In this document: piece by piece, positions 1 to 29,994 of the stretch | Layout: each line of letters begins with the position of its first letter | How positions within the stretch are numbered: position 1 is the first letter of the stretch | Assembly: GCA_020725625.1 (NCBI GenBank) | Contig: DYET01000043.1 | Location: 1 to 40,643 of the forward strand | DNA: 40,643 nt | Direction of reading: 5' to 3' | Source of the DNA: Desulfovirgula sp. | GTDB lineage: Bacteria; Bacillota; Desulfotomaculia; Desulfotomaculales; Desulfocucumaceae | Program-made: the position numbers and the translations under genes | Notes under the pieces: generated by a model | Databases searched by the model: none | What the model saw: the letters and a program-made list of their open reading frames with translations, nothing else | What the model was told of the DNA's origin: nothing

Positions 1-102
1 ATCCGCAAGGCCCTGGCAGAATTGAGGTACCATTTAAGACGCAACTTTGTTGCGTACCAGTCTCATCGGAAAAAGAAGTTGATGTTTCTGGAATCCGGAT
101 AA
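1..102 (+). CDS. 3' end of an unidentified gene (partial)
   Basis: An open frame enters from the left edge and ends at TAA 100-102, leaving 33 residues. The visible tail is basic, rich in Arg and Lys, and begins with a helix-like Ala/Leu/Arg stretch. No motif is long enough to name a family. It ends three bases before the stop of the convergent CBS gene, which fits a real gene end or a rearrangement junction. It could also be a chance open frame. Confidence 0.25.
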   Translation: MRKALAELRYHLRRNFVAYQSHRKKKLMFLESG

Positions 103-105
103 TTG

Positions 106-564
106 TCAAGGTTCAGGAATTAATTTACGCTGTAGTACTATGGGGATGGCCTTTAAAATGGACGACAGCTCGTTCATCAGCCGCTCGGTATTGTTCAGCA
201 GAAAGAAGACAATGTTGATCTTGGTCAGCATCCCCACCGGCCGGTTGCCGTCGTCCACCACCACCCACTGGCCCACCGGGGTGTTGCGGATTTCCGAAAT
301 TTCGTTGAGCTTCTGGTCATGCCTGATCGAGACCACCTGGTTGATGTAGTGGCCTTTGATCTTCTCCCCGGGGCCGACGCCCTTTAAAAGGCACTTGTAC
401 AGCGATCTCTTGGAGAAAATGCCGATCAGGGATCCCTCCCCGTCGACCACGGGCAGGGCATCAAACCGGTATTTCTGCAGCTTTTCCACCGACTCGATGA
501 TGGTGCTTTCCGGATTGAGCAGGCACTGCGGATTAATCGGGGTCATCAGTTCGCTGGGGAGCAT
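106..564 (-). CDS. Stand-alone CBS-pair protein, truncated paralogue of the sigma-54 activator
   Basis: This protein of about 152 residues consists of two CBS motifs, a module that usually binds adenine nucleotides and senses energy state. It matches the first 150 residues of the activator at 5915-8074 closely: both share the [11 protein letters not shown]-type strand, the [13 protein letters not shown] segment and the following TE-LM-EL helix. Similarity stops at the AIPI motif where the activator's first PAS domain begins; here a few unrelated residues and a stop follow. I chose ATG 564 because AAGGTGA lies just upstream; an upstream GTG at 573 overlaps that site. It is the last gene of the minus-strand operon, about 80 bases after the Fe-S protein gene. 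It may be a separate CBS sensor able to pair with the activator, or the relic of a duplicated activator. The coding frame is intact. Confidence 0.75.
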   Translation of the reverse strand: MLPSELMTPINPQCLLNPESTIIESVEKLQKYRFDALPVVDGEGSLIGIFSKRSLYKCLLKGVGPGEKIKGHYINQVVSIRHDQKLNEISEIRNTPVGQWVVVDDGNRPVGMLTKINIVFFLLNNTERLMNELSSILKAIPIVLQRKLIPEP

Positions 565-643
565 AAAAATCACCTTCAGTTCAGTTAACGGTTTAACCTA
601 CAGTTGCCTTCTTCGCTGGCCGTGATAAAAAGCCCGATACCCG

Positions 644-1747
644 TTAAATCTTGCCCTTCTCCCGGGCGATGGCCAGGAGCTGTTCCTTTTTGTTTTTCGG
701 GGGCGGAACGATCTCCTTTTTCCTGACCATGTCCAGGGCCCCGGCCGGGCAGCTGGCCGCGCAGACCCCGCAGCCGATGCAGAGATCCCGGTCGATGACC
801 GGTATTTCCAGGTCGTGGTCCATCCTGACGGCCTGGACCTGGCAGCGCCCGGCGCACACCTCGCAACCCTCGCAGAGGTCGACGGTGAGTTCGGGGGTGA
901 AGTGGCTGGGGCTTACCGACATTATCCCCGACTTTCTGATCGTTTGGAGCACCCCGCAGCAGCAACCGCAGCAGTGGCAGATGTAGGCCGGCTTGTACAG
1001 CACGTTGTCCCCCAGGTGCACTAAGCCATGCTTTTCGGTCAAATCCAGCACCCGCAGGAGTTCGTCTACGCCGGCGGCCCTGCCGAAGCCCCGTCTGATC
1101 ACCCAGGCGGCGGCGTCCCCCAAGGAAGTGCACACCTCCAGGGGCGCGTCACAGGCGGTGCCCAGGTGTCCGGCCTTGTGGCGGCAGGTGCATACCGTCA
1201 GGGCCCCGCCGCCGGACTGCCGGATGATCTCGGAAGCCCTTTCGTAGTCCAGCACCTCGGTCTCCACCACCGCCGGGATAATCTTCTCGTAAACCAGAGA
1301 CTTGAACATCTTGGTGGGGGCCGAAAAAATTTCCTCCCTGACCTCCGGGTACTCGAAATAAGTTCTGAAAAGCTCGGCCATTTCCCTGAGGTTGACGTCC
1401 TCCCTGCTCACCCGCATGAAGGTGTACTCAAAGAATCCCACCACCATTGGAGAGAGCATGTAATAGGTCTCCCCCCGGCGGTCGATGTCCACTACCAGCC
1501 CTTTGTCGGCCATGCCGTCGAGAATCTTTTTCAGCTCCCCCCCGGCCACCCCCACGGCTTCGGAAACGTGGTCCAGGGTCATTGGGAAGAGGGGGAACTT
1601 GCTACCCACCTCGGCCTCGCTGACGGTGTACAGCCGGTGCAGGATCTCCATCAGGGTCTCGTTGACCGGCGCCCCCACCGGGTTTTTGTTCAGCCGCCGG
1701 GCCAGGGCGTGGTAAACCTCTTCCTTGGAATTGACAAGGTGACCCAA
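644..1747 (-). CDS. Winged-helix / 4Fe-4S ferredoxin-domain protein
   Basis: About 367 residues. The N-terminal third (residues about 35-100) resembles a winged-helix fold. The middle carries a VCTCRH motif near residue 186 and a very Cys-rich CHCCGCCC motif near 257-264. The C-terminus is a 2[4Fe-4S] ferredoxin domain with CEGCEVCAGRC and CIGCGVCAASCP. Proteins of this design occur beside oxidoreductase genes in anaerobes. A role as electron carrier or redox-sensing partner for the AOR/SDR operon is inference. Start: the long open frame begins at TTG 1765, but AAGGAGG at 1762-1756 is followed eight bases later by TTG 1747, so 1747 is preferred. It lies downstream of the two SDR genes on the same strand. 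Confidence 0.8.
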   Translation of the reverse strand: MGHLVNSKEEVYHALARRLNKNPVGAPVNETLMEILHRLYTVSEAEVGSKFPLFPMTLDHVSEAVGVAGGELKKILDGMADKGLVVDIDRRGETYYMLSPMVVGFFEYTFMRVSREDVNLREMAELFRTYFEYPEVREEIFSAPTKMFKSLVYEKIIPAVVETEVLDYERASEIIRQSGGGALTVCTCRHKAGHLGTACDAPLEVCTSLGDAAAWVIRRGFGRAAGVDELLRVLDLTEKHGLVHLGDNVLYKPAYICHCCGCCCGVLQTIRKSGIMSVSPSHFTPELTVDLCEGCEVCAGRCQVQAVRMDHDLEIPVIDRDLCIGCGVCAASCPAGALDMVRKKEIVPPPKNKKEQLLAIAREKGKI

Positions 1748-1838
1748 ATTGAAAACCTCCTTCAACCACTGCGATATATGCTTTAATCATATCGCAAATT
1801 GCATGCCACCGGCAGCCCCCCGGGGTCAACTTTCCCAC

Positions 1839-2612
1839 TTACTGGTGGGGAAGGATGGTGAACAGGTCAAGGCCGCCCGTAACCGGCAGGATCACGCCGG
1901 TGATGTACTTTGCCTGCTCGGAACAGAGAAAGGCGACGGCATTGGCTATATCCCAGGTCTCCCCCTCCCTGCCGAAGGCCGTGCGCGCCCTGACCTCGTC
2001 CTTGACCGGGTCGGAGATGGAGTTCAGGAATATTTCCGACCCAATAATGCCGGGGGCGATAATATTCGAGGTGATGTTGTACCTGGCGCCTTCCAGCGCA
2101 ATGGTCCTGGCGAAGCCCACCACGCCGATCTTGCTGGTGGTGTAACTGGCCTGCCCGTAGCCCCCCAACAGGCCCACGATGGAGCTCATCGAGACGATCC
2201 TTCCCCACCGGTTCCTCCTCATGATCGGAAAGACGGCCTTGGTGATGTAGTACATGCCGGTGAGGTTGACCTCAAGGTCCCTCTTCCACTGTTCGTCGTC
2301 AAACTTGGTGATCGAGGCGATGGTGTCGCAGATGGCGGCATTGTTAATCAGTATGTCGACGCTGCCGTACATTTCAGCCACCTGGCCGACCTGCCGGTTG
2401 ACCAGTTCCCGGTCCGAGATATCGACGTAAAAGGCCCGGGCCTCGCCGCCCTCTTCCCTGATTGCCTGGGCCGTTTTTTCGGCCTCTTCCTGCAGTATGT
2501 CGAAAATGGCTACCTTTGCCCCTTCCCGGGACAGGACATGGCAGTCGGCTCTGCCGATTCCCCTCGCCCCGCCGGTGACAATGGCGGTTTTACCCTTTAA
2601 CCCAAAGTCCAA
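1839..2612 (-). CDS. Short-chain dehydrogenase/reductase (SDR), FabG-like
   Basis: A 257-residue classical SDR, NAD(P)-dependent and cytosolic. The nucleotide-binding motif TGGARGIG is at residues 13-20, NNAA near 90-93, and the catalytic set is S144, Y157 and K161 (YxxxK). The C-terminus has the usual YITG-x-VTGG end. Substrate cannot be read from the sequence; hydroxyacyl-CoA or alcohol oxidation is likely given its neighbours. The start is TTG 2612, preceded by GGGAGG at a good distance. It lies about 60 bases after the other SDR gene in the same operon. The two SDRs are clearly different proteins, so consecutive steps or different stereochemistry are more likely than simple redundancy. 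Confidence 0.85.
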   Translation of the reverse strand: MDFGLKGKTAIVTGGARGIGRADCHVLSREGAKVAIFDILQEEAEKTAQAIREEGGEARAFYVDISDRELVNRQVGQVAEMYGSVDILINNAAICDTIASITKFDDEQWKRDLEVNLTGMYYITKAVFPIMRRNRWGRIVSMSSIVGLLGGYGQASYTTSKIGVVGFARTIALEGARYNITSNIIAPGIIGSEIFLNSISDPVKDEVRARTAFGREGETWDIANAVAFLCSEQAKYITGVILPVTGGLDLFTILPHQ

Positions 2613-2673: not shown

Positions 2674-3438
2674 TCAGCACAGGCCTCCGGAGACCCCCAG
2701 CACCTGCCCGGTAACGTAGTCGGACAGCGGGCTGGCGAAAAACAGCACGGCGTCGGCGATTTCACCGGGTTGGGCGAACCTCTTCATCGGGATCAGCGCC
2801 TTTCTTTCCTCCAGCACCCGGGCCGCGAACTCCGAGAGCTGGATCCCCTTTTTCAGCATCGGGGTTTCGGTGGGGCCCGGGGCCACGCTGTTGACGCATA
2901 CACCGTACCGGGACACCTCCTGGGCCAACGACCTGGTAAAGGAAATCAGCCCCCCCTTGGCCGCGGCATAGGCGGTTTCGCCGTATGCCGCGGTGCGCCC
3001 GGCCTCCGACGAGATGTTGACTATTTTACCGTAGCCCGCCCTGATCATCCCGGGCAGGACGACGTGGCAGCAGTTCATGTGACCCTTGAGGTTCAGGTCC
3101 AGGATCTTGGTCCAGAACTCCGGCCGGTTGTCGATAAAGAGCTCCATGATGTCCCACCCCGCGTTGTTGACCAGGATGTCCAGCCTTCCGAAACGGTCCA
3201 GCACCCTTCCGAAGACCTCTTTGACCTGATCATAGCTGGTGATGTCCACCTCGAAGGGGACCACCTCCGGGCCGCCCAGTCCCGAAATCCGGGAGGCGGC
3301 TTCCCGCGCCCTTTCCCCGTTTTTGTCCAGCAGGGCTACCCGGGCGCCGTTTCCGGCCAGCCTCTCCACCACGGCCTCCCCGATCCCCCTGCCGCCTCCG
3401 GTGACCGCAGCCGTCTTGTTCTCCAAAAGCAACGCCAT
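2674..3438 (-). CDS. SDR resembling BadH (2-hydroxycyclohexanecarboxyl-CoA dehydrogenase)
   Basis: About 254 residues, classical SDR: TGGGRGIG at 13-20, NNAG at 91-94, catalytic S144, Y157 and K161. Several signatures recall BadH of the Rhodopseudomonas cyclohexanecarboxylate pathway: DILVNNAGWD, VLPGM, the GE-x-YAA-x-KGGL active-site helix, VAPGPTET, and the GQVL-x-VSGGL C-terminus. This likeness is from memory of the family, so oxidation of a 2-hydroxy(cyclo)acyl-CoA to the 2-oxo form is a hypothesis. Start is uncertain: ATG 3438 is used here, ATG 3450 lacks a ribosome site, and TTG 3432 has GGGGGG at a better distance. It lies between the AOR gene and the second SDR. Confidence 0.8.
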   Translation of the reverse strand: MALLLENKTAAVTGGGRGIGEAVVERLAGNGARVALLDKNGERAREAASRISGLGGPEVVPFEVDITSYDQVKEVFGRVLDRFGRLDILVNNAGWDIMELFIDNRPEFWTKILDLNLKGHMNCCHVVLPGMIRAGYGKIVNISSEAGRTAAYGETAYAAAKGGLISFTRSLAQEVSRYGVCVNSVAPGPTETPMLKKGIQLSEFAARVLEERKALIPMKRFAQPGEIADAVLFFASPLSDYVTGQVLGVSGGLC

Positions 3439-3502
3439 ACCCCCCATCATGTTGGTTGATTAATCCAAGTTGGTTGGTTAATCACATGCGACCTGACGGC
3501 GT

Positions 3503-5386
3503 TTACAGGCCCAGCCGCTTCAGCAATTCCTCCCCGGGGACGCCGCCGGTGTCCCAGCCCCTCTCATCGTAGTAATCGTCAAGAAGGGAGGCGACCTGTT
3601 TTTCGTCCATGGGAGGGTACTCCCTGCCTCCCACGATGATGCTTTCGGTCATCCACCTTTTGGGAGGCATGTCGTCCTTCCTGGCAAACCCTTCTGCCAG
3701 GTTGTATAGCCTTTCGGCGTTGATTATCTTCTCCCCGCCGGCGGCCAGGAGTTTTTCCGCCGTGGCCGTGATGCCGGTGGCCGCCTGGTACAATTCCAGG
3801 CACCTCTCAAGGCTGAACACCCGGGCCAGGGGGGACCGGTTGCAAAGCCCCAGCGAAAGCAGCAGGGTGTTGTGGTCCTCCACCCATTTAAGGAACCTGG
3901 ATGGGTGAAAGCCGTGGATACCTTTAAACACCCTGTCGAAAGCGTCTTCGGGAACGCCGATTCGCCTGCCGTACCTTTTCAGGGCGTCGGCCGACCTTCC
4001 GGGTACGATGGTGACGGACAGGGCGCTCATGGCGTGCCCGCCCCGGCTGCTGGTAAGCTGCCCCACGTTTTCGGTGCACTGGTATCCCCTGATGTCCATG
4101 GTGGGGTCCACCCTCTTGATGTGCACCGCGTGCTCTCGGGCGGCGCCGCCCAGGCGGTTGACAGTCTCCTGCCAGGTGCCGGCCAGGACGTCCCCGACCC
4201 CTTCCCGGTAGGCTGTTTTGTGGAGCATCTCCATGGTCTTTTCAAACCCCAGCCCCGGTTCCAATCCCTGGTAGGCCTCCCTGCCCACCAGACCCTTTTC
4301 GTAAAGGAAATAAAGGAATTCCATCTTGGCACTGAAGGACCCCAGGTCCATGCCCAGCCGGTTGCAGACCTCGTAGCATTTTGCCGACCAGGCGTAGCCC
4401 CCGGTCTTCAGGCGGCTGCCGAAGCCCTCGGAAATGGCGAAGGGATTGGAGGACACGAAGGACACCCCTTTGAACTCCCCTTCCCTGATTTCCAGCTGGC
4501 CCTTGCAGCCCAGGGGGCAGGACGGGCAGCTGTAGGACCCCTTCCGGAGTTCCTTTTCGTAAGCCTTCGGCCCCCAGAGCCGGGTGGCCTCCTCGGGCGG
4601 GTAGGACCCGCCCCAGTTGTCCACCGTCAGCTTGCCGGTGGCCATCCAGGCCTCCCAGGCCATCAGGAGGCCGTATCTGGTCCACTGATCGATAAAGGGG
4701 CCGCTTTTGAATTCCTGGACGCACTGGTCGACCACTTTCAGGAAGGCCTTGGGGTCGGCCACCCCGATGCCCCGGCTGCCCCTCACCGCAATGGCCTTTA
4801 AATTCTTGGATCCGAATACCGCCCCGGCGCCCCCCCGGCCCCAGGTGGCCTGTTTGTTAATCAAGATTAGAGCGAAGGTAACCAGGTTTTCCCCGGCCGG
4901 CCCGATGGCGGCCACCGAGCAGCGGCCGTGCCTTCCCTGCAAAATGTCGGTGGCGTCGAAGATGTCCAGCCCCCTGAGGTCGGTGGCGTCCAGGATGCTG
5001 ACCCGGTCGTCGTCTATGTTGATGTAGACCGGTTTATCCGCCCTGCCGGTGATCACCAGGTGGTCGTAGCCGGCGTACTTGAGCATGTTCCCCAGTTCAC
5101 CGGTGGGCGAGGACAGTATCGTCCCGGACTGGGGGCTCCTGGTGGTCAGCAGGGTTTTTGACGAGGCCGGGGCGATGGTGCCCACCAGGGGGCCGGCTCC
5201 GATGACCATGGGGTTCTCCGGGGAAAGGGGGTCGGTTTTGGGCCGGCATAGGCTGTGGAAAAGGCAGGTGTTGATCCCCTGTCCGCCGATATAATCCCTT
5301 TTCAGATCCTCCGGAAGCTCACTTTTCTTAACTGTCCGCTCCGTAAGGTCAATGTGCAGTATGGATCCCGCAAACCCGCCGGACAT
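3503..5386 (-). CDS. Aldehyde:ferredoxin oxidoreductase family protein (tungsten/molybdopterin)
   Basis: A 627-residue member of the AOR family, which binds a tungsten (or molybdenum) bis-pterin cofactor and one [4Fe-4S] cluster and couples aldehyde/acid or related reactions to ferredoxin. Family marks are the N-terminal GxILHIDL strand, the GG-G segment near residue 34, GPAGEN near 162, GRGGAGAVFGSKNLKAI near 183-199, cluster cysteines C287, C290 and C294 (CPSCPLGC), and the fourth Cys C515 (LGLC). Start ATG 5386 overlaps the ferredoxin stop by one base (TGATG), so the two are translationally coupled. Upstream in-frame codons to 5458 lie inside the ferredoxin gene and are rejected. The ferredoxin pairing recalls both AOR systems and class II benzoyl-CoA reductase BamBC; sequence alone does not tell which. 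Confidence 0.9.
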   Translation of the reverse strand: MSGGFAGSILHIDLTERTVKKSELPEDLKRDYIGGQGINTCLFHSLCRPKTDPLSPENPMVIGAGPLVGTIAPASSKTLLTTRSPQSGTILSSPTGELGNMLKYAGYDHLVITGRADKPVYINIDDDRVSILDATDLRGLDIFDATDILQGRHGRCSVAAIGPAGENLVTFALILINKQATWGRGGAGAVFGSKNLKAIAVRGSRGIGVADPKAFLKVVDQCVQEFKSGPFIDQWTRYGLLMAWEAWMATGKLTVDNWGGSYPPEEATRLWGPKAYEKELRKGSYSCPSCPLGCKGQLEIREGEFKGVSFVSSNPFAISEGFGSRLKTGGYAWSAKCYEVCNRLGMDLGSFSAKMEFLYFLYEKGLVGREAYQGLEPGLGFEKTMEMLHKTAYREGVGDVLAGTWQETVNRLGGAAREHAVHIKRVDPTMDIRGYQCTENVGQLTSSRGGHAMSALSVTIVPGRSADALKRYGRRIGVPEDAFDRVFKGIHGFHPSRFLKWVEDHNTLLLSLGLCNRSPLARVFSLERCLELYQAATGITATAEKLLAAGGEKIINAERLYNLAEGFARKDDMPPKRWMTESIIVGGREYPPMDEKQVASLLDDYYDERGWDTGGVPGEELLKRLGL

Positions 5387-5625
5387 CAGTTCACCCCCTC
5401 CTTCTCCACCAACGCCCCGAAGGGGCAGTACCGGGCGCACAGCCCGCATTTCAGGCACTCGTCCCGGAAGCTGACCGTGCTCCCGGGGCCGTTGAAGTCG
5501 ATGGAAATGTGCGCCTTAAGGGGATTGAAGCGGTCCGTGCTGTTAAAGGAGCAGATCAGACGGCAGCACAAACAATTGGTGCATTTCGACGGGTCGTACT
5601 GAAAGCCGTTAACCTCCTGAATCAT
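5386..5625 (-). CDS. 2[4Fe-4S] ferredoxin-like subunit of the AOR
   Basis: A 79-residue polyferredoxin. The cluster motifs are C15-x2-C18-x2-C21-x3-C25, with an extra Cys at 20, and C57-x2-C60-x2-C63-x3-C67. The spacer of about 30 residues between motifs is longer than in simple clostridial ferredoxins and resembles small electron-transfer subunits encoded with AOR-family enzymes. Start ATG 5625 has GAGG eight bases upstream. It is the first gene of the operon, about 100 bases downstream of the predicted sigma-54 start point, and its stop overlaps the AOR start. It probably carries electrons between the AOR and soluble ferredoxin or another acceptor (inference). Confidence 0.88.
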   Translation of the reverse strand: MIQEVNGFQYDPSKCTNCLCCRLICSFNSTDRFNPLKAHISIDFNGPGSTVSFRDECLKCGLCARYCPFGALVEKEGVN

Positions 5626-5739: not shown

Positions 5740-5755
5740 TGCAATAACGGGACCA
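5740..5755 (-). promoter_or_regulatory. Sigma-54 (-24/-12) promoter of the ferredoxin-AOR-SDR operon
   Basis: The minus strand reads TGGTCCCGTTATTGCA. This matches the sigma-54 consensus TGGCAC-N5-TTGCA with the invariant GG and GC exactly 12 positions apart. Transcription would start near 5729, giving a leader of about 100 bases before the ferredoxin ATG. The adjacent upstream gene encodes a sigma-54 activator, which supports the call strongly. Confidence 0.8.
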
Positions 5756-5798
5756 GACGAAAAACCTGAAATCGGGGAATTTTTAGCCTCCTGACGAA

Positions 5799-5847
5799 AA
5801 AAAGTCCGGTTTTTCGAACTGTCGGTGTTCGAAAAACCGGACTTTTT
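5799..5847 (-). terminator. Perfect 21-bp hairpin after the sigma-54 activator gene
   Basis: The arms 5799-5819 and 5827-5847 are perfect inverted repeats of 21 bases around a 7-base loop. In the minus-strand transcript the stem is followed by a run of U residues, so it can terminate the activator mRNA. Its core is also two copies, in opposite orientation, of the 16-bp element described separately, so it may have a second role as a protein-binding site. Confidence 0.75.
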
Positions 5848-5907
5848 CCAAAATCGTTCTACCTTATTCATATTTCAGTATTGCACCACATGTCCGAATA
5901 TTCGAAC
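5804..5907. promoter_or_regulatory. Three 16-bp repeats, candidate upstream activator sites (UAS)
   Basis: GTCCGGTTTTTCGAAC occurs at 5804-5819 and, inverted, at 5827-5842. GTCCGAATATTCGAAC occurs at 5892-5907. The two forms agree at 13 of 16 positions, and the last is a near-perfect palindrome. Centres lie about 80, 105 and 170 bases upstream of the predicted transcription start, the usual range for enhancer sites of Fis-domain sigma-54 activators. Binding by the adjacent activator is inferred. Confidence 0.65.
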
Positions 5908-5914
5908 GTGGCCC

Positions 5915-8074
<2,160 letters not shown>

Positions 8075-8321
8075 GGCAGTCCACTCCCCCGTGATGTTTT
8101 CTGTTTATTCAGATTTGACAAAAAAAACTGATTACCTTTAGTAAAAATATACTTTTTATCAGGTACGGCCGCCCCCGGTCCTGAAAAGATTGCCGGACAA
8201 AGAAGGTATTGCCATCCATCTGTTCGAATTTATTTAGACAACACCTCAAAGGAAATACCTCAAGGATGAGAAGGTAAATTATCTTGCCAAATAATGTCCC
8301 TTTAAAGAAGGTGGTTTGACC

Positions 8322-9749
8322 ATGCCTGTTATAAGTAAATTTTTTGAACCTGACAGCATTGCCATTATCGGGTCGTTCAGAGAAGGTTTTTTTGGCAGCC
8401 ACGTTATGATCAAAACCCTGCGCGAAGCCGGCTTTAAGGGCGATATTTACCCCGTCAACCCGTCCTACAGGGAGGTTCTGGGTATCAGGGTTTTTCCGTC
8501 GGTAGCCGCCGTTCCGGCCGGGATCGACCTGGCTTTCATTATGGTGGGTTGCGACACCGTTCCCATGATCATCGGGGAATGTGCCTCCAAAGGCGTACGG
8601 GCGGTTGTGGTGGTGTCGGACGGGTTTGCCGAAAGAAACGAAAAGGGCGCCAGGCTGCAGGAGGAGATTGTGGATATCGCCCGGAGGGCGGGTATACGAA
8701 TCATCGGCCCCAATACCGCCGGCATAGTGAATACAGCCAACGGCTTCAACCCCTGCCCATACGAGGCCGGATACTCCAAAATCAAGGAAGGACCGGTGGC
8801 AATCTGCTCGCAGACCGGGATGACCAACCCCCAGGCGTACCCTTACGCCGACCTGGGATACGGAATCAGTAAAATATGCGACTTCGGCAACAAGTGCGAT
8901 GTTGACGAGTGCGATTTGCTTGAATACCTTGGGAACGACCCCGCCACCGGGGTAATTTCCATGTACCTGGAAAGCATCAGGAACGGGCGGCGGTTTCTGG
9001 AAACCGCCAAACGGGTTACCCCAAGGAAGCCTGTACTGGTATTAAAATCCGGGAGGACCCCGGAGGGGGCCAGGGCATCGGCCTCTCACACAGGCTCCAT
9101 GGCCGTGGATGACCGGATTTTCGACGCCGCCTGCAGGCAGGCGGGTATTATCCGCCTGGAAAAGTTCAGTGAGCTTTTTGAGGTGCCCAAGATTTTTGCA
9201 CTTCAGCCTCCACCCGGGGGAAACCGGCTGGGAATAGTCAGCTATACCGGCGGGGTCGGCGTCCTGGCCACCGACGAGGCCCTGAAATACGGGCTGGCCA
9301 TGGCCCGGCTAACCGATGATACCGCTGAAACGCTGAACAGTATTTTTCCCGGCCTGGGTGAAACACCGGTGGACCTGGGCCCGGTGGCCGCGGCCCGCGC
9401 CGCCGGTTTCATGGACCTCTACCCCCGGGTATTGGAAGCAGTATCGGCCGACGGGAATATCGACTGCCTGTTAAACATAATCTGGTCAAATTCCAGCGCG
9501 GGCGAATCGGAAGAAATCTATCTGAATTTATACCGGAAACTGAAAAGAAACTGCCCCAAGCCCCTGGTCACCTGGCTGTACGGATCTTCCCTGGCCAACA
9601 CCGCCAGGCTTGCCCGGAAGCTGGAAGAGATGGGCTTCCCGGTATATTCCGATCTGGAAGCAGCCGTCAAATCCCTCGGCATTGCCTGTAGATACAGGAT
9701 ACAGGTCCGTCGGAAGGGAGGGAATGTAAATGACCCTTGTGCTGACTGA
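8322..9749 (+). CDS. ADP-forming acyl-CoA synthetase, alpha-type subunit
   Basis: About 475 residues with the NDP-forming acyl-CoA synthetase layout: CoA-binding Rossmann domain (about 1-130, starting FFEPDSIAIIG), succinyl-CoA-ligase-like domain (about 145-280) with the ASHTGS motif holding the phosphorylated-His candidate H256, and a C-terminal ligase domain. The enzyme converts acyl-CoA, ADP and phosphate to acid, CoA and ATP, or the reverse. Start ATG 8322 follows GAAGGTGG by seven bases; TTG 8316 overlaps the spacer. The gene is divergent from the sigma-54 activator and overlaps the next gene by 20 bases. It may conserve energy at the end of an acyl-CoA pathway run by neighbouring genes (inference). 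Confidence 0.92.
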   Translation: MPVISKFFEPDSIAIIGSFREGFFGSHVMIKTLREAGFKGDIYPVNPSYREVLGIRVFPSVAAVPAGIDLAFIMVGCDTVPMIIGECASKGVRAVVVVSDGFAERNEKGARLQEEIVDIARRAGIRIIGPNTAGIVNTANGFNPCPYEAGYSKIKEGPVAICSQTGMTNPQAYPYADLGYGISKICDFGNKCDVDECDLLEYLGNDPATGVISMYLESIRNGRRFLETAKRVTPRKPVLVLKSGRTPEGARASASHTGSMAVDDRIFDAACRQAGIIRLEKFSELFEVPKIFALQPPPGGNRLGIVSYTGGVGVLATDEALKYGLAMARLTDDTAETLNSIFPGLGETPVDLGPVAAARAAGFMDLYPRVLEAVSADGNIDCLLNIIWSNSSAGESEEIYLNLYRKLKRNCPKPLVTWLYGSSLANTARLARKLEEMGFPVYSDLEAAVKSLGIACRYRIQVRRKGGNVNDPCAD

Positions 9750-10404
9750 ATTTGAATCCAAGAAACTGATCGGGAAAGCCGGAATAGAGGTGGTGGAAAC
9801 CAGACTGGCCCGAACCTGCGGGGAGGCCGTTACTATAAGCAAAGAGATTGGTTTCCCGGTGGCGATGAAAATAAATTCCCCTGATATTATCCATAAAAGC
9901 GATTCCGGGGGGGTAAAGCTGGGCCTGAATGACCCCGACGGGGTGGAAAGGGCTTACCGCGAAATTATGGGAGCGGCTGCAAGTCGCCACCCCCGGGCAG
10001 AAATCCAGGGGGTGACCGTCCAGAAAATGGCCCCGCCGGGAATTGAAACAATTATCGGCGTAAGCAGGGACCCCCTGTTCGGGCACGTTATAATGTTCGG
10101 GCTGGGAGGCGTCTTTGTGGAAGTGCTGAAAGATGTTGCATTCAGGGTTGTTCCGGTCACCGGAAAGGACGCCAGGGAGATGATTGAAGAGATCAAGGGG
10201 TACCCCCTGCTGCAGGGATACCGGGGCCGGGATCCGGTAAATATCGCCGCCGTTGAGAACATCATCCTAAAAATATCGGACTTCGCAGAAAAGAACCCGG
10301 AGGTAGTGGAACTGGACCTGAACCCGGTTTTCGCCTGCGCAGACCGGGCTGTGGCCGCGGATGCCAGGATTATCCTGGCTGCAAAAAACCATGTCAATTT
10401 GTAA
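9730..10404 (+). CDS. ADP-forming acyl-CoA synthetase, beta-type (ATP-grasp) subunit
   Basis: 224 residues, an ATP-grasp domain of the acetyl-CoA synthetase (ADP-forming) beta family. Marks include the N-terminal LTEFESKKLIGKAGI-like segment, the PVAMKINSPDIIHKSDSGGV core, the metal/ATP-binding loop MFGLGGVFVEV, and the C-terminal VELDLNPVF. Its ATG lies inside the end of the alpha gene in another frame (20-base overlap), with GGGAGGG upstream, so the two are translationally coupled and likely form one heteromeric enzyme. Length is normal for a stand-alone beta subunit. Confidence 0.92.
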   Translation: MTLVLTEFESKKLIGKAGIEVVETRLARTCGEAVTISKEIGFPVAMKINSPDIIHKSDSGGVKLGLNDPDGVERAYREIMGAAASRHPRAEIQGVTVQKMAPPGIETIIGVSRDPLFGHVIMFGLGGVFVEVLKDVAFRVVPVTGKDAREMIEEIKGYPLLQGYRGRDPVNIAAVENIILKISDFAEKNPEVVELDLNPVFACADRAVAADARIILAAKNHVNL

Positions 10405-24698: not shown

Positions 24699-26028
24699 TT
24701 GTTGTTTTAAACAAGGCGGTCCTTTTAGCAGAAGGAATTTTTTATCATTAAAAGAATTAACTAAACATCACCGCGGGACCGGTGCGCGGGGGGAGGCGGT
24801 CCGACTGGAATCACCTGCAAGTGATATTTTCGCCCTATTTAAAGAATTCAGACACGTCTGCAACCATAGGGAGCGGGTTATCGAGGGGTATAAAACAAGC
24901 ACGGGCAAAAGAGTGGTCGGCTACCTGTGCACGTACGTACCGGTGGAGATTATACACGCTGCCGGGTTGCTGCCGGTCAAGATCGGCGGCGGCTACCTGC
25001 CCGGTATTGACGCAAACCGCCTGCTGCCCTCCTTTATCTGCCCTTACCTGAGGTCCCTTGCCGAACTGGGCCTCCAGGGCGGCTGCCGTTATCTGGACGG
25101 CATCATTCACGCCTATACCTGTGACGCGGCGTGCGGGGTGTTCAATATATGGCGGCGGAATTTTCCCCCGGCCTTTTCCCACATCATCCACCAGCCCTAC
25201 CTCGACGGGAGGCAGTCGCTAAAGTTCTACCACCGGGAGCTGGAATTACTGATTGAAAACATCGAACGGCACTTCGGGACAAAAGCGGGACCGGACAGCC
25301 TGTCCTCGTCGGCCGGTCTCTACCGCGACATCCGGGCCGCCCTTGCCAGGCTGTATTCCCTGCGCAGGCGGGAACCGGCCGCTTTCACCGGGGAGGAAAT
25401 CTTCCATGCGGTGAACGCCGGTTTCGCCCTGCCGCCGGAAGAATACCTGGAAATGCTTGGGCGGGTCAACGACCGGATTGCCGGCCGGCACCACCCGGCG
25501 CCCGGCGAGCCGGGCAGTGCCGGCGTCGGGGCGGGGCCGGCGGGCGGAAAGGTGCCCGTATTGCTGTCCGGCAGCCACCTCCTGGACCCCTCGGTGTTTG
25601 ACCTTATCTACTCCTGCGGCGGAATTGCGGTGGACGACGACCTGTGCAACGGCCGCAGAAGCTTTGACCGGGGCCCGGAAACGGTAGAACCTTTGTCCGC
25701 CGCCCCGGAAGCCGACGTGGAAATTCCGGGGCCGCTCAGGGAAATCATTGCCTTTTACCGCGGCAGGCCGGGCTGCCCGGCCCGGGTACCGGCTAAAAAA
25801 AGGCTGCCTTATCTCATCGACCTTGCCCGGGAATCCGGCGCCAGGGGTGTTGTTTTCGCGGTACAAAAATTTTGCGACCCCCACCTGGCGGACCTGCCCC
25901 TTTTGACGGCCTGGCTCAAGGAAGCGGGTTACCCTTCACTGATCCTGGAATACGACGGCCGTATCAATCCGGGGGCGGCGGCCACCCGGCTGCAGGCGTT
26001 TTTCGAAATGATCGGGGGTGCGGCATGA
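24676..26028 (+). CDS. 2-hydroxyacyl-CoA dehydratase / benzoyl-CoA reductase family subunit 1
   Basis: 450 residues of the HgdB/FldC/BcrC-like family. Conserved Fe-S cysteine contexts are GYLCTYVPVEIIHAAG, SFICPYLRS with YTCDAACGVF, and DDDLCNG; the C-terminal FCDPH..DLPLL block is also typical. Such subunits bind a [4Fe-4S] cluster and, after one-electron activation by an ATPase, remove water from 2-hydroxyacyl-CoA or reduce aromatic CoA esters. The start is GTG 24676, inside the phoU stub and without a good ribosome site; no better start was found. The first 45 residues look unusual and may be non-native. It overlaps the next gene by ATGA. Confidence 0.83.
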   Translation: MSEKNLTDCCFKQGGPFSRRNFLSLKELTKHHRGTGARGEAVRLESPASDIFALFKEFRHVCNHRERVIEGYKTSTGKRVVGYLCTYVPVEIIHAAGLLPVKIGGGYLPGIDANRLLPSFICPYLRSLAELGLQGGCRYLDGIIHAYTCDAACGVFNIWRRNFPPAFSHIIHQPYLDGRQSLKFYHRELELLIENIERHFGTKAGPDSLSSSAGLYRDIRAALARLYSLRRREPAAFTGEEIFHAVNAGFALPPEEYLEMLGRVNDRIAGRHHPAPGEPGSAGVGAGPAGGKVPVLLSGSHLLDPSVFDLIYSCGGIAVDDDLCNGRRSFDRGPETVEPLSAAPEADVEIPGPLREIIAFYRGRPGCPARVPAKKRLPYLIDLARESGARGVVFAVQKFCDPHLADLPLLTAWLKEAGYPSLILEYDGRINPGAAATRLQAFFEMIGGAA

Positions 26029-27284: not shown

Positions 27285-29078
27285 ATGGCCGGAACTCATA
27301 CCATAGTCCACGCCGTCATTGAAAATTCCCGGCGCTATCCCGGCGAAACCATCTTCAAAATCAAAAGGGACGGGTATTACCGCGACATCTCCTGGGGCCA
27401 GCTGTGGAAAATGGTGGTCAACTGCGCCGGGGGCCTGATTTCAGCCGGGCTCCTCCCCGGGGAGCGGGTGGCCGTCCTGAGCCAAAACCGCCTGGAATGG
27501 GCGGTGGCGGACCTGGCGGCGCTCTGTTGCGGCGGCGTTACGGTGCCGATATACCCCACCGGCACGCCGGCCCAGGTGGCCCACGTCATCGCCGACTCCG
27601 GGGCGGGGTACTTATTCGTCGAGGACGGTGAACAGCTGGACAAGGTAACCGGGGAACTGGGCAGGCTTCCCAAAATAAAAAAAATAATCGTGATGGAAAA
27701 TAATAAGGAGTTCGCAGCACCGATTGCGGAGTCTTACCCGGACTTTCTCAGGAAGGGGGAAGAAACCAGGGAGGAAACCGAAAAGATATTGGAGGACAGG
27801 CTTAAAAATATCGGCGGGGAAAGCATCGCCACCATCGTATACACCTCCGGAACCACGGGCCCTCCCAAGGGGGCGGTGCTGGCCCACCGCAACATCGTCA
27901 CCATCTGCGACTCCATAGACCGGCTGATCAGCCTTGACCGCACCCGGGAGATATCCCTCCTGATCCTGCCCCTGTCCCACCTCTTCGCCCGGGCGGCTGG
28001 GTACTTCTACAGCCTGCACAAGGCCATCCCCGTCGCCTTCGCCGAAAATATCAACACAGTGGTGGAAAATATCCGGGAAATAAGGCCCACTTATTTCATC
28101 AGCGTGCCCAGGGTTTACGAAAAACTGTACGCGCACCTTAATTCCCAGGTTCTTAAAATGTCGCCTCTGCAAAAAAGGATCTTTAACTGGAGCCGGGACG
28201 TGGGCCTGGAATACGGGGCAGCCAGGGAAATGCGGAGGAAAGTCCGCTTATCCCTCGCCCTTCGCTACGCCCTGGCCAGGAAGCTGGTTTTTGACAAACT
28301 CGCCGCGCTTTTCGGGGGCCGCCTGAGATTCTGCGTCAGCGGCGGCGCTCCCCTGTCCGCCGAAATAGCCCGCTTCATGTACGCGGCGGGAGTACATATC
28401 CTGGAATTTTACGGCCTCACCGAGACCTGCGGCGGAACCCAGAACACCTTCGAAAGATACCGGTTTGGGTCCGTCGGCCCCGCCATGCCCGGAATTGAGT
28501 TTAAAATAGCCGAAGACGGGGAGATCCTGATGCGCGGCAACAACTTTCTGGGGTACTACAACAACCCCGGGGCCACAGCCGGGGCGCTGCGCGACGGCTG
28601 GTTCCACACCGGGGACATCGGGCGGGTGGACGAGGACGGCTTTTTATATATCACCGACCGCAAGAAGGACCTGATCATCACCGCCGGCGGGAAGAACATC
28701 GCTCCCCAGAACATTGAAAACCTCTTCAAGGACAGCCGCTGGATCAGCCACCTGGTTGTATTCGGCGACCGGCAAAAGTTCCTGACCGCCCTGGTAACGC
28801 TGAACCGCCCGGAAATAGAGGCCTATGCCCGGGAGAAAAACATCACCTGGACCGACTACGGCGACCTCCTGAGGCACCCGGACATTTATCAACTGGTGGA
28901 AAGCGAAATCGCCGAAAGGAACCGCGAACTGGCCAGGTACGAAACGATAAAGAGGTTTGCCGTCCTTCCGGAGGAATTTTCCATTGAAACCGGGGAACTT
29001 ACGCCCACCATGAAAGTGAAGAGAAGGGTGGTCTTTGAAAAGTACGGCCGACTACTGGAAGAACTCTACGGGGACTGA
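27285..29078 (+). CDS. AMP-forming acyl-CoA synthetase (long-chain type)
   Basis: 597 residues of the adenylate-forming family: P-loop YTSGTTGPPKGA, FYGLTET, the hinge region with HTGDIG and ITDRKKDLIITAGGKNIAP, and a C-terminal Lys region. Activates a carboxylic acid to its CoA thioester with ATP to AMP. Its layout is that of bacterial long-chain synthetases, but the true substrate is open. AAGGAGG sits nine bases before ATG 27285, 15 bases after the dehydratase pair, so the three form one operon. It may supply the CoA ester used by the pair. Confidence 0.9.
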   Translation: MAGTHTIVHAVIENSRRYPGETIFKIKRDGYYRDISWGQLWKMVVNCAGGLISAGLLPGERVAVLSQNRLEWAVADLAALCCGGVTVPIYPTGTPAQVAHVIADSGAGYLFVEDGEQLDKVTGELGRLPKIKKIIVMENNKEFAAPIAESYPDFLRKGEETREETEKILEDRLKNIGGESIATIVYTSGTTGPPKGAVLAHRNIVTICDSIDRLISLDRTREISLLILPLSHLFARAAGYFYSLHKAIPVAFAENINTVVENIREIRPTYFISVPRVYEKLYAHLNSQVLKMSPLQKRIFNWSRDVGLEYGAAREMRRKVRLSLALRYALARKLVFDKLAALFGGRLRFCVSGGAPLSAEIARFMYAAGVHILEFYGLTETCGGTQNTFERYRFGSVGPAMPGIEFKIAEDGEILMRGNNFLGYYNNPGATAGALRDGWFHTGDIGRVDEDGFLYITDRKKDLIITAGGKNIAPQNIENLFKDSRWISHLVVFGDRQKFLTALVTLNRPEIEAYAREKNITWTDYGDLLRHPDIYQLVESEIAERNRELARYETIKRFAVLPEEFSIETGELTPTMKVKRRVVFEKYGRLLEELYGD

Positions 29079-29151: not shown

Positions 29152-29994
29152 TTATTGCCGGCCGGGCAGACTCCCGGCGCCCAGCGCCTTCTGGCACTGC
29201 CGGACGGCCCCGGTTGCGCCCTTGGACGGGGCGTATACATAAGGCCTCCTGTACTTGCTGCACATCACCTCCACGGCCGGCATGCGGTGGGACATCATCT
29301 CGGTTACAATTACAACCACATCGGCCTGCCGGACCTTGGACTCCACCGTTTTACCGGGCCCTCCCCGGAAGCCGGACTCCCAGAGAAACCTGGCCCCCCT
29401 TCTCTCGAACATTTTCTTGAACGATTCCTTGTAAATGTCCGCCCCCACCACCAGTACCGTGCGGTCGGCCAGCACCGGGTCGGCGACGTCGATCCTGGGC
29501 CGCCCTGTGTCCTCTTCCCGGCCGCGCCTCCGCACCGGATCCTTCGGGCGGGGCAGGTCGGTTTCATCGTACTTCCAGGCAATCCTGGCTCCGGAAGGGT
29601 CCCCCTTCATGTAGCCGACTTCCACCAGGTCGCCCTGCCTCAGGCGCATGGCCCTGACCTCGCCGGGCCTCAGGCTGATCAGCTCCCCTTCTTCCTCGGA
29701 GTAAATCATCCATTCACCGCCGTGGGAAATCAGCGGACCGGTCACCGAAACCCTCTCCGAGGCCTCCCCAAGGCCCCTGCGTTCCTCCACGGCAAACTCA
29801 TAAAGCACCGAATCCCCCAGTTTCCCCAGGGGAACCGCCGACATCAGGTCGCCGTCCTCCAGCCCCAGCCTTCGCACCCATATCTCCGGCACGAAAATTT
29901 CTTCCCCGTCACCCGCTTTAATTACGCCCCCCCTGGGCAAGCGAAAGAATTCCCCCCGGTAGACAATTTCATCGCCGTCTTCCCGACCGGCCAT
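29152..29994 (-). CDS. DUF2325-domain protein
   Basis: 280 residues. The N-terminal part (to about 140) is beta-rich and of unknown type. The C-terminal part (about 180-275) is a DUF2325-like domain: VLVVGADIYKESFKKMFE, a central DVVVIVTEMMSHRM and YRRPYVYAPSKG. Function is not established. Start ATG 29994 follows GGAGG by nine bases; the frame open to 30063 is rejected. Convergent with the acyl-CoA synthetase gene. Confidence 0.72.
   Translation of the reverse strand: MAGREDGDEIVYRGEFFRLPRGGVIKAGDGEEIFVPEIWVRRLGLEDGDLMSAVPLGKLGDSVLYEFAVEERRGLGEASERVSVTGPLISHGGEWMIYSEEEGELISLRPGEVRAMRLRQGDLVEVGYMKGDPSGARIAWKYDETDLPRPKDPVRRRGREEDTGRPRIDVADPVLADRTVLVVGADIYKESFKKMFERRGARFLWESGFRGGPGKTVESKVRQADVVVIVTEMMSHRMPAVEVMCSKYRRPYVYAPSKGATGAVRQCQKALGAGSLPGRQ

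Follow-up and report, generated by a model that had tools for sequence, protein, structure and literature searches.

A predicted sigma-54 control region for an aldehyde ferredoxin oxidoreductase operon and its recurrent three-site arrays beside a duplicated activator gene

Sigma-54-like promoter, predicted activator sites and hairpin between EBP1 and the oxidoreductase operon

The window (the whole 40.6-kb stretch of DNA analysed, contig C12) carries on its minus strand a gene coding for a 719-aa protein, here called EBP1 (5915..8074). Pfam searches detected CBS, two PAS, AAA+ and Fis-type helix-turn-helix domains in this protein (Sigma54_activat 2.5e-71, PAS, CBS, HTH_8). The CBS/PAS activator gene that the initial annotation had placed next to the promoter is thus present, and the Sigma54_activat match, the GAFTGA loop seen in the translation and the Fis-type HTH mark its product as a sigma-54 enhancer-binding protein. 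In the same orientation lies a group of genes encoding a 4Fe-4S (ferredoxin-like) protein (operon gene 1, 5386..5625, Pfam Fer4), the aldehyde ferredoxin oxidoreductase AOR1 (3503..5395, likely ATG start around 5386; AFOR_N 8e-71, AFOR_C 3e-67) and two short-chain dehydrogenases (SDRs) recognized by Pfam (2674..3450 and 1839..2612). The AOR operon, which had been claimed as well, was borne out by both AFOR domains and by the accompanying genes. A probable further member (644..1765, minus strand) encodes a protein of 373 aa whose C-terminal domain is of the 4Fe-4S type (Pfam Fer4). On the other side of EBP1, and divergent from it, lie two plus-strand reading frames (8316-10404). The first has CoA-binding and succinyl-CoA-ligase-like domains, and together they may encode an ADP-forming acyl-CoA synthetase, one subunit each.

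Between EBP1 and the ferredoxin-AOR-SDR-SDR operon, direct reading and a pattern scan located a sigma-54-like -24/-12 site, TGGTCCCGTTATTGCA, at 5740-5755 on the minus strand, base for base as originally described. It contains GG-N10-GC and agrees with TGGCAC-N5-TTGCW at 9 of the 11 scored positions, and the pattern TGGYNCNNNNNTTGCA has its single exact match in the window at this place. When the intergenic region was shuffled 2000 times with dinucleotides preserved, 20 of the shuffles had an equally good site on the same strand. The position of the -24/-12 elements predicts a start point for the operon around 5729. A sigma-54 gene is present in the genome (Sigma54_DBD 9.8e-62).

Upstream of the promoter there are three 16-bp predicted activator sites, found by scanning and with a position weight matrix (PWM). 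The sequence GTCCGGTTTTTCGAAC occurs on the plus strand at 5804..5819 and again on the minus strand at 5827..5842, the second copy being the exact reverse complement of the first, with 23 bp between the two centres. The distal site, GTCCGAATATTCGAAC, occupies 5892..5907 and lies 7 bp past the EBP1 stop codon. The initial annotation had reported three such elements, one sequence twice in inverted orientation, at about 80, 105 and 170 bases from the start point; the sites were found as described, and their computed centres lie approximately 82, 105 and 170 bp upstream of 5729. The nearest site is separated from the downstream promoter by 48 bp.

The two proximal sites, taken as minus strand RNA, fold into a hairpin (5798..5848, also returned by a terminator scan) with a perfect 21-22-bp stem and a 7-nt loop (MFE -32.4 kcal/mol, z of -6.5, and -6.6 when folded in context), followed by U7 and located 3' of the EBP1 stop codon; the initial annotation had not noted it. 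On its own, each of these sites is only a weak palindrome (8 of its 16 positions), but the two are perfectly complementary to one another, and the pairing runs past the sites into flanking A/T tracts. Intrinsic terminators are recognised by a stable, GC-containing hairpin downstream of a gene with a U-tract behind it, and the terminator scan detected no second strong terminator on the minus strand of this gap. Because the RNA form of the inverted repeat is a hairpin with a U-tract, and because the complementarity is perfect beyond the sites themselves, the proximal pair of activator sites probably also serves as the intrinsic terminator of EBP1.

A split paralogue and three further arrays

EBP1 has a single close relative in the genome, EBP2, which is 69% identical to it over residues 147-709 and was found at the right end of contig C162. 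The recognition helix, SRSRFYEK, is common to the two proteins. The N-terminal (CBS) part of EBP2 is found in the window (106..573, minus strand), where it is cut by an insertion sequence (IS) whose end occupies 1-137. The split gene is distributed between window positions 1-573 and the right end of C162 (L045, 5076-6885). The IS end TACTACAGCGTAA is present at both contig ends, together with a 4-bp target duplication, ATAG, and restoring the empty site yields a continuous 735-codon frame that shares 66.5% identity with EBP1. In all, the genome has 14 copies of this terminus, many of them near contig ends. The shared IS end, the duplication and the restored frame indicate that C12 and C162 are very probably adjacent, and that the IS separates the CBS part of EBP2 from the PAS part.

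C162 carries genes for a second aldehyde ferredoxin oxidoreductase (AOR2), an AMP-binding CoA ligase and a CoxG-like protein, and a FAD oxidoreductase operon. In its intergenic regions beside EBP2 we found three further three-site arrays that match the geometry of the array next to EBP1 (locus 1). At locus 2, before the FAD oxidoreductase, the sites are at 25312, 25335 and 25409, with the sigma-54-like promoter TGGTACACTGATTGCT at 25223 on the minus strand. The sites of locus 3 (27195, 27217 and 27284) lie between the divergent CoA ligase and AOR2 genes. Locus 4 (30009, 30032 and 30105; sigma-54-like promoter TGGTATATAATTTGCT at 29944, minus strand) precedes the CoxG-like gene at the end of EBP2, and its distal site falls within the last EBP2 codons, resembling locus 1 at the end of EBP1. 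The spacing of the proximal pair is 23, 23, 22 and 23 bp at loci 1-4, and the distal site is further away by 65, 74, 67 and 73 bp. From the nearest site to the sigma-54-like promoter the distance is 73 bp at locus 2 and 49 bp at locus 4, equally good promoters on the relevant strand being found in 3 and 58 of 2000 dinucleotide shuffles, respectively. No clear, correctly placed sigma-54 promoter was found at locus 3 (L045 2164-2538, corresponding to C162 27163-27537): relative to a good -24/-12 site, TGGCATGCTAGTTGCA at 27430 on the minus strand, the array would lie downstream, inside the transcribed leader, and the candidate facing AOR2 is weak, being equalled by half of the shuffles.

The proximal pair of locus 2 also forms a hairpin followed by U8 (z of -3.9), that of locus 4 a hairpin without a U-tract (z of -6.6), and the fold at locus 3 is weak. 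Since pairs of palindromic sites can always fold to some extent, little weight attaches to the hairpins seen at loci 3 and 4.

The 12 array sites define the palindromic motif GTCCGRAATTYCGGAC. A strict version with an AT core, GTYCGRWWWYYCGRAC, which was picked after all arrays were known, has six exact matches in the 3.15-Mb genome, all of them in the locus 1 intergenic region or beside EBP2; this confinement to two stretches argues that the motif is beyond chance. The looser GTYCGRNNNNYCGRAC matches exactly at seven places in the 3.15 Mb, three at locus 1, three beside EBP2 and one elsewhere, and as it was first derived from the window sites alone, the C162 sites constitute independent evidence. 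At the lone remaining exact match, GTCCGGAAGGCCGGAC at C37:16190, the core is GC and there is no good sigma-54 promoter nearby; it was dismissed as a chance occurrence. PWM scores of the 12 array sites ranged from 17.6 to 23.2, values inflated by the use of the same sites for training, and the next best scores were 11.2 in the window and 13.2 in 21.9 kb of C162. Three of the 12 sites carry two mismatches.

Less stringent searches gave background counts. With up to three mismatches, GTCCGNNNNNTCGAAC was found 121 times in the window (108 expected), so that only strict patterns or PWM scores are informative. A spaced double pattern allowing two mismatches occurred 378 times, compared with 366 for the reversed control; it has three exact places, loci 1 and 2 among them. 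Across 113 genomes GTYCGRNNNNYCGRAC alone displayed no general enrichment because its unspecified core also matches GC-rich coding DNA, from which the AT-core version separates the sites.

Related activators and sites in other genomes

No EBP1 orthologue above about 47% identity was found in 113 genomes of the order or in 398 genomes sampled from the phylum, AOR1 had no close relative in our searches except AOR2, and searching the genome contigs for related loci returned only distant activators. The comparison between loci was therefore made with the paralogue EBP2 and with more distant relatives instead of operon orthologues. Elsewhere in the order, the more remote activators with a comparable architecture often have sigma-54-like promoters downstream of the activator stop codon, and in several of them terminator-like hairpins lie between stop codon and promoter.

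An unbiased search for 4-bp inverted half-sites was carried out upstream of 24 sigma-54-like promoters in clusters with related activators. TTGT-N12-ACAA ranked first (6 regions, 0.05 expected), two of the six being one site between divergent promoters. GTCC-N8-GGAC and GTCC-N12-GGAC came next, each in four regions for 0.05 expected; the GTCC-N8-GGAC count was reached in none of 300 mononucleotide shuffles, and as some of the genomes are congeneric, the GTCC counts are not all independent. Such a related site is, for example, TTGTCCTGTTTTCGGAACAA. Within the same genus, one genome (L071) has GTCCGGTCAACAGGAC 69 bp before TGGCATTTTCTTTGCA, upstream of a CoA-ligase homologue. Taken together, the GTCC-N8-GGAC and TTGT-N12-ACAA sites of the relatives suggest that the window motif is a CG-containing variant of a wider family.

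The L082 cluster of genome G017 (G017:C6, 465-530 and 10010-11905) is an acyl-CoA degradation cluster whose CBS-PAS activator shares about 40% identity with EBP1. Three of its intergenic regions have groups of GTCC-N8-GGAC-like sites and sigma-54-like promoters that agree at 10 of 11 positions. In one of these regions a pair of the GTCC type folds into a hairpin of -35 kcal/mol followed by U8 (z of -7.4), with the promoter (10/11) shortly beyond.

Proposed control circuit and its relation to known systems

We consider it highly probable that locus 1 is a sigma-54-dependent control region, in which EBP1 (or EBP2) acts from the three palindromic sites to activate the ferredoxin-AOR-SDR-SDR promoter, and in which the proximal pair probably also ends the EBP1 transcript. 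The enhancer-plus-promoter reading of the initial annotation is supported by the recurrence of the array beside EBP2, by the sigma-54 gene and by the enrichment of GTCC-N8-GGAC elsewhere. Sites, promoter, protein domains, array recurrence and geometry, and hairpin can be read from the sequence; from these we infer binding, signal, activation and termination. In the envisaged mechanism, dimers of EBP1, or of its twin EBP2, would bind the three GTCCGRAATTYCGGAC sites, and the activator would oligomerise once its CBS and PAS domains sense a signal, perhaps adenylate status through CBS and a metabolite of an aldehyde or acid pathway through PAS. It would then loop to the sigma-54-RNA polymerase held at 5740-5755, and its ATPase would open the promoter for transcription of the operon. 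The RNA of the proximal pair, folded into a hairpin with its U-tract, would end the EBP1 transcript and insulate the operon from read-through.

The perfect 22-bp stem, the 7-nt loop and the U7 stand where a terminator is expected after the EBP1 stop codon, and no other strong candidate was detected on that strand of the gap. The inverted pair could be the intrinsic terminator of EBP1 and nothing else, in which case the resemblance of the third element, like the promoter, would be incidental. This is very improbable, as the motif occurs without a U-tract in the third site (5892) and at loci 3 and 4 of C162, this genome-rare motif clusters at four intergenic regions with the same spacing, and related GTCC-N8-GGAC sites lie upstream of sigma-54-like promoters in other genomes. 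Palindromic, intergenic elements in several copies within one cluster might also suggest a scattered REP- or MITE-like repeat family. Genome-wide counts ruled out such an origin, which we regard as having a negligible chance of being correct: there are no copies elsewhere in the 3.15 Mb, and the core varies between copies while their mutual spacing stays.

Which of the twins uses the sites is a different matter. That the sites are used not by EBP1 alone but by EBP2, or by the two activators in cross-talk, is a variant compatible with the preferred explanation, and we judge it quite possible, if at somewhat less than an even chance. The identical recognition helices, the single motif throughout all four arrays and the former neighbourhood of the loci, attested by the 735-codon frame at the empty IS site, speak for it. 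Against it, a GTTCG half-site is present once in each of the three locus 1 sites, whereas all nine C162 sites lack it, a difference that may reflect separate specificities of the two activators. As EBP2 is split by the IS, EBP1 may now run all four arrays.

To return to the proposed control region, it seems to us an even chance that its proximal pair has been selected both as enhancer in DNA and as the activator gene's own terminator in RNA. Such a fused element would recur in relatives of the activator family, and through it activator binding might influence whether transcription of the activator gene terminates or reads through. Narrow literature searches found no description of a sigma-54 enhancer doubling as a terminator, and locus 1 would be a simple case where one DNA stretch may act as both. 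Three features appear to be new: the CG form of the motif, a set of four arrays of matched layout around an activator present twice, and DNA that enhancer and terminator probably share. The analysis provides a complete, sequence-level regulon hypothesis, consisting of an activator pair, a consensus site, four arrays and sigma-54 promoters. The cluster concerned encodes CoA ligases as well as two aldehyde:ferredoxin oxidoreductases, and such circuits have been little described in this lineage.

Inverted-repeat activator sites at about 80-170 bp, a -24/-12 promoter and activation by looping are characteristic of enhancers of the NifA and FhlA type. Locus 1 differs from these in the sequence of the sites and in that some of its enhancer sequence doubles as a terminator-like hairpin for the activator gene.

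Closer parallels exist among the Clostridiales, where TGT/ACA inverted repeats with a 10-12-bp spacer are the site class of activators including AorR and PrdR (PMC6615313). The initial annotation did not recognise the motif from described regulons; it appears to be a variant of this published TGT-N10-12-ACA class, which the CG-containing form would extend. GT-N12-AC is kept in most of the array sites, and the outer T/A in only 9 of the 24 half-site ends; the relatives carry the full TTGT-N12-ACAA. AorR, a sigma-54 activator predicted to control aor in Clostridium and Geosporobacter (Nie et al. 2019, PMC6615313), fits as a direct precedent: compared by target and site class, both are sigma-54 enhancer-binding proteins with an aldehyde oxidoreductase gene as predicted target and inverted-repeat upstream sites. 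In contrast to the aor-moaD operon of AorR, the operon here is ferredoxin-AOR-SDR-SDR, the strong core is GTCCG-N6-CGGAC with the outer T/A weakly kept, and a single cluster holds four arrays and a twin activator. PrdR, the best NCBIfam match of EBP1 (3e-156), is a PAS-AAA-Fis activator whose site class is also TGT/ACA (PMC6615313), but EBP1, with 521 bits, is below the family cut-off of 795, has other targets and carries N-terminal CBS domains.
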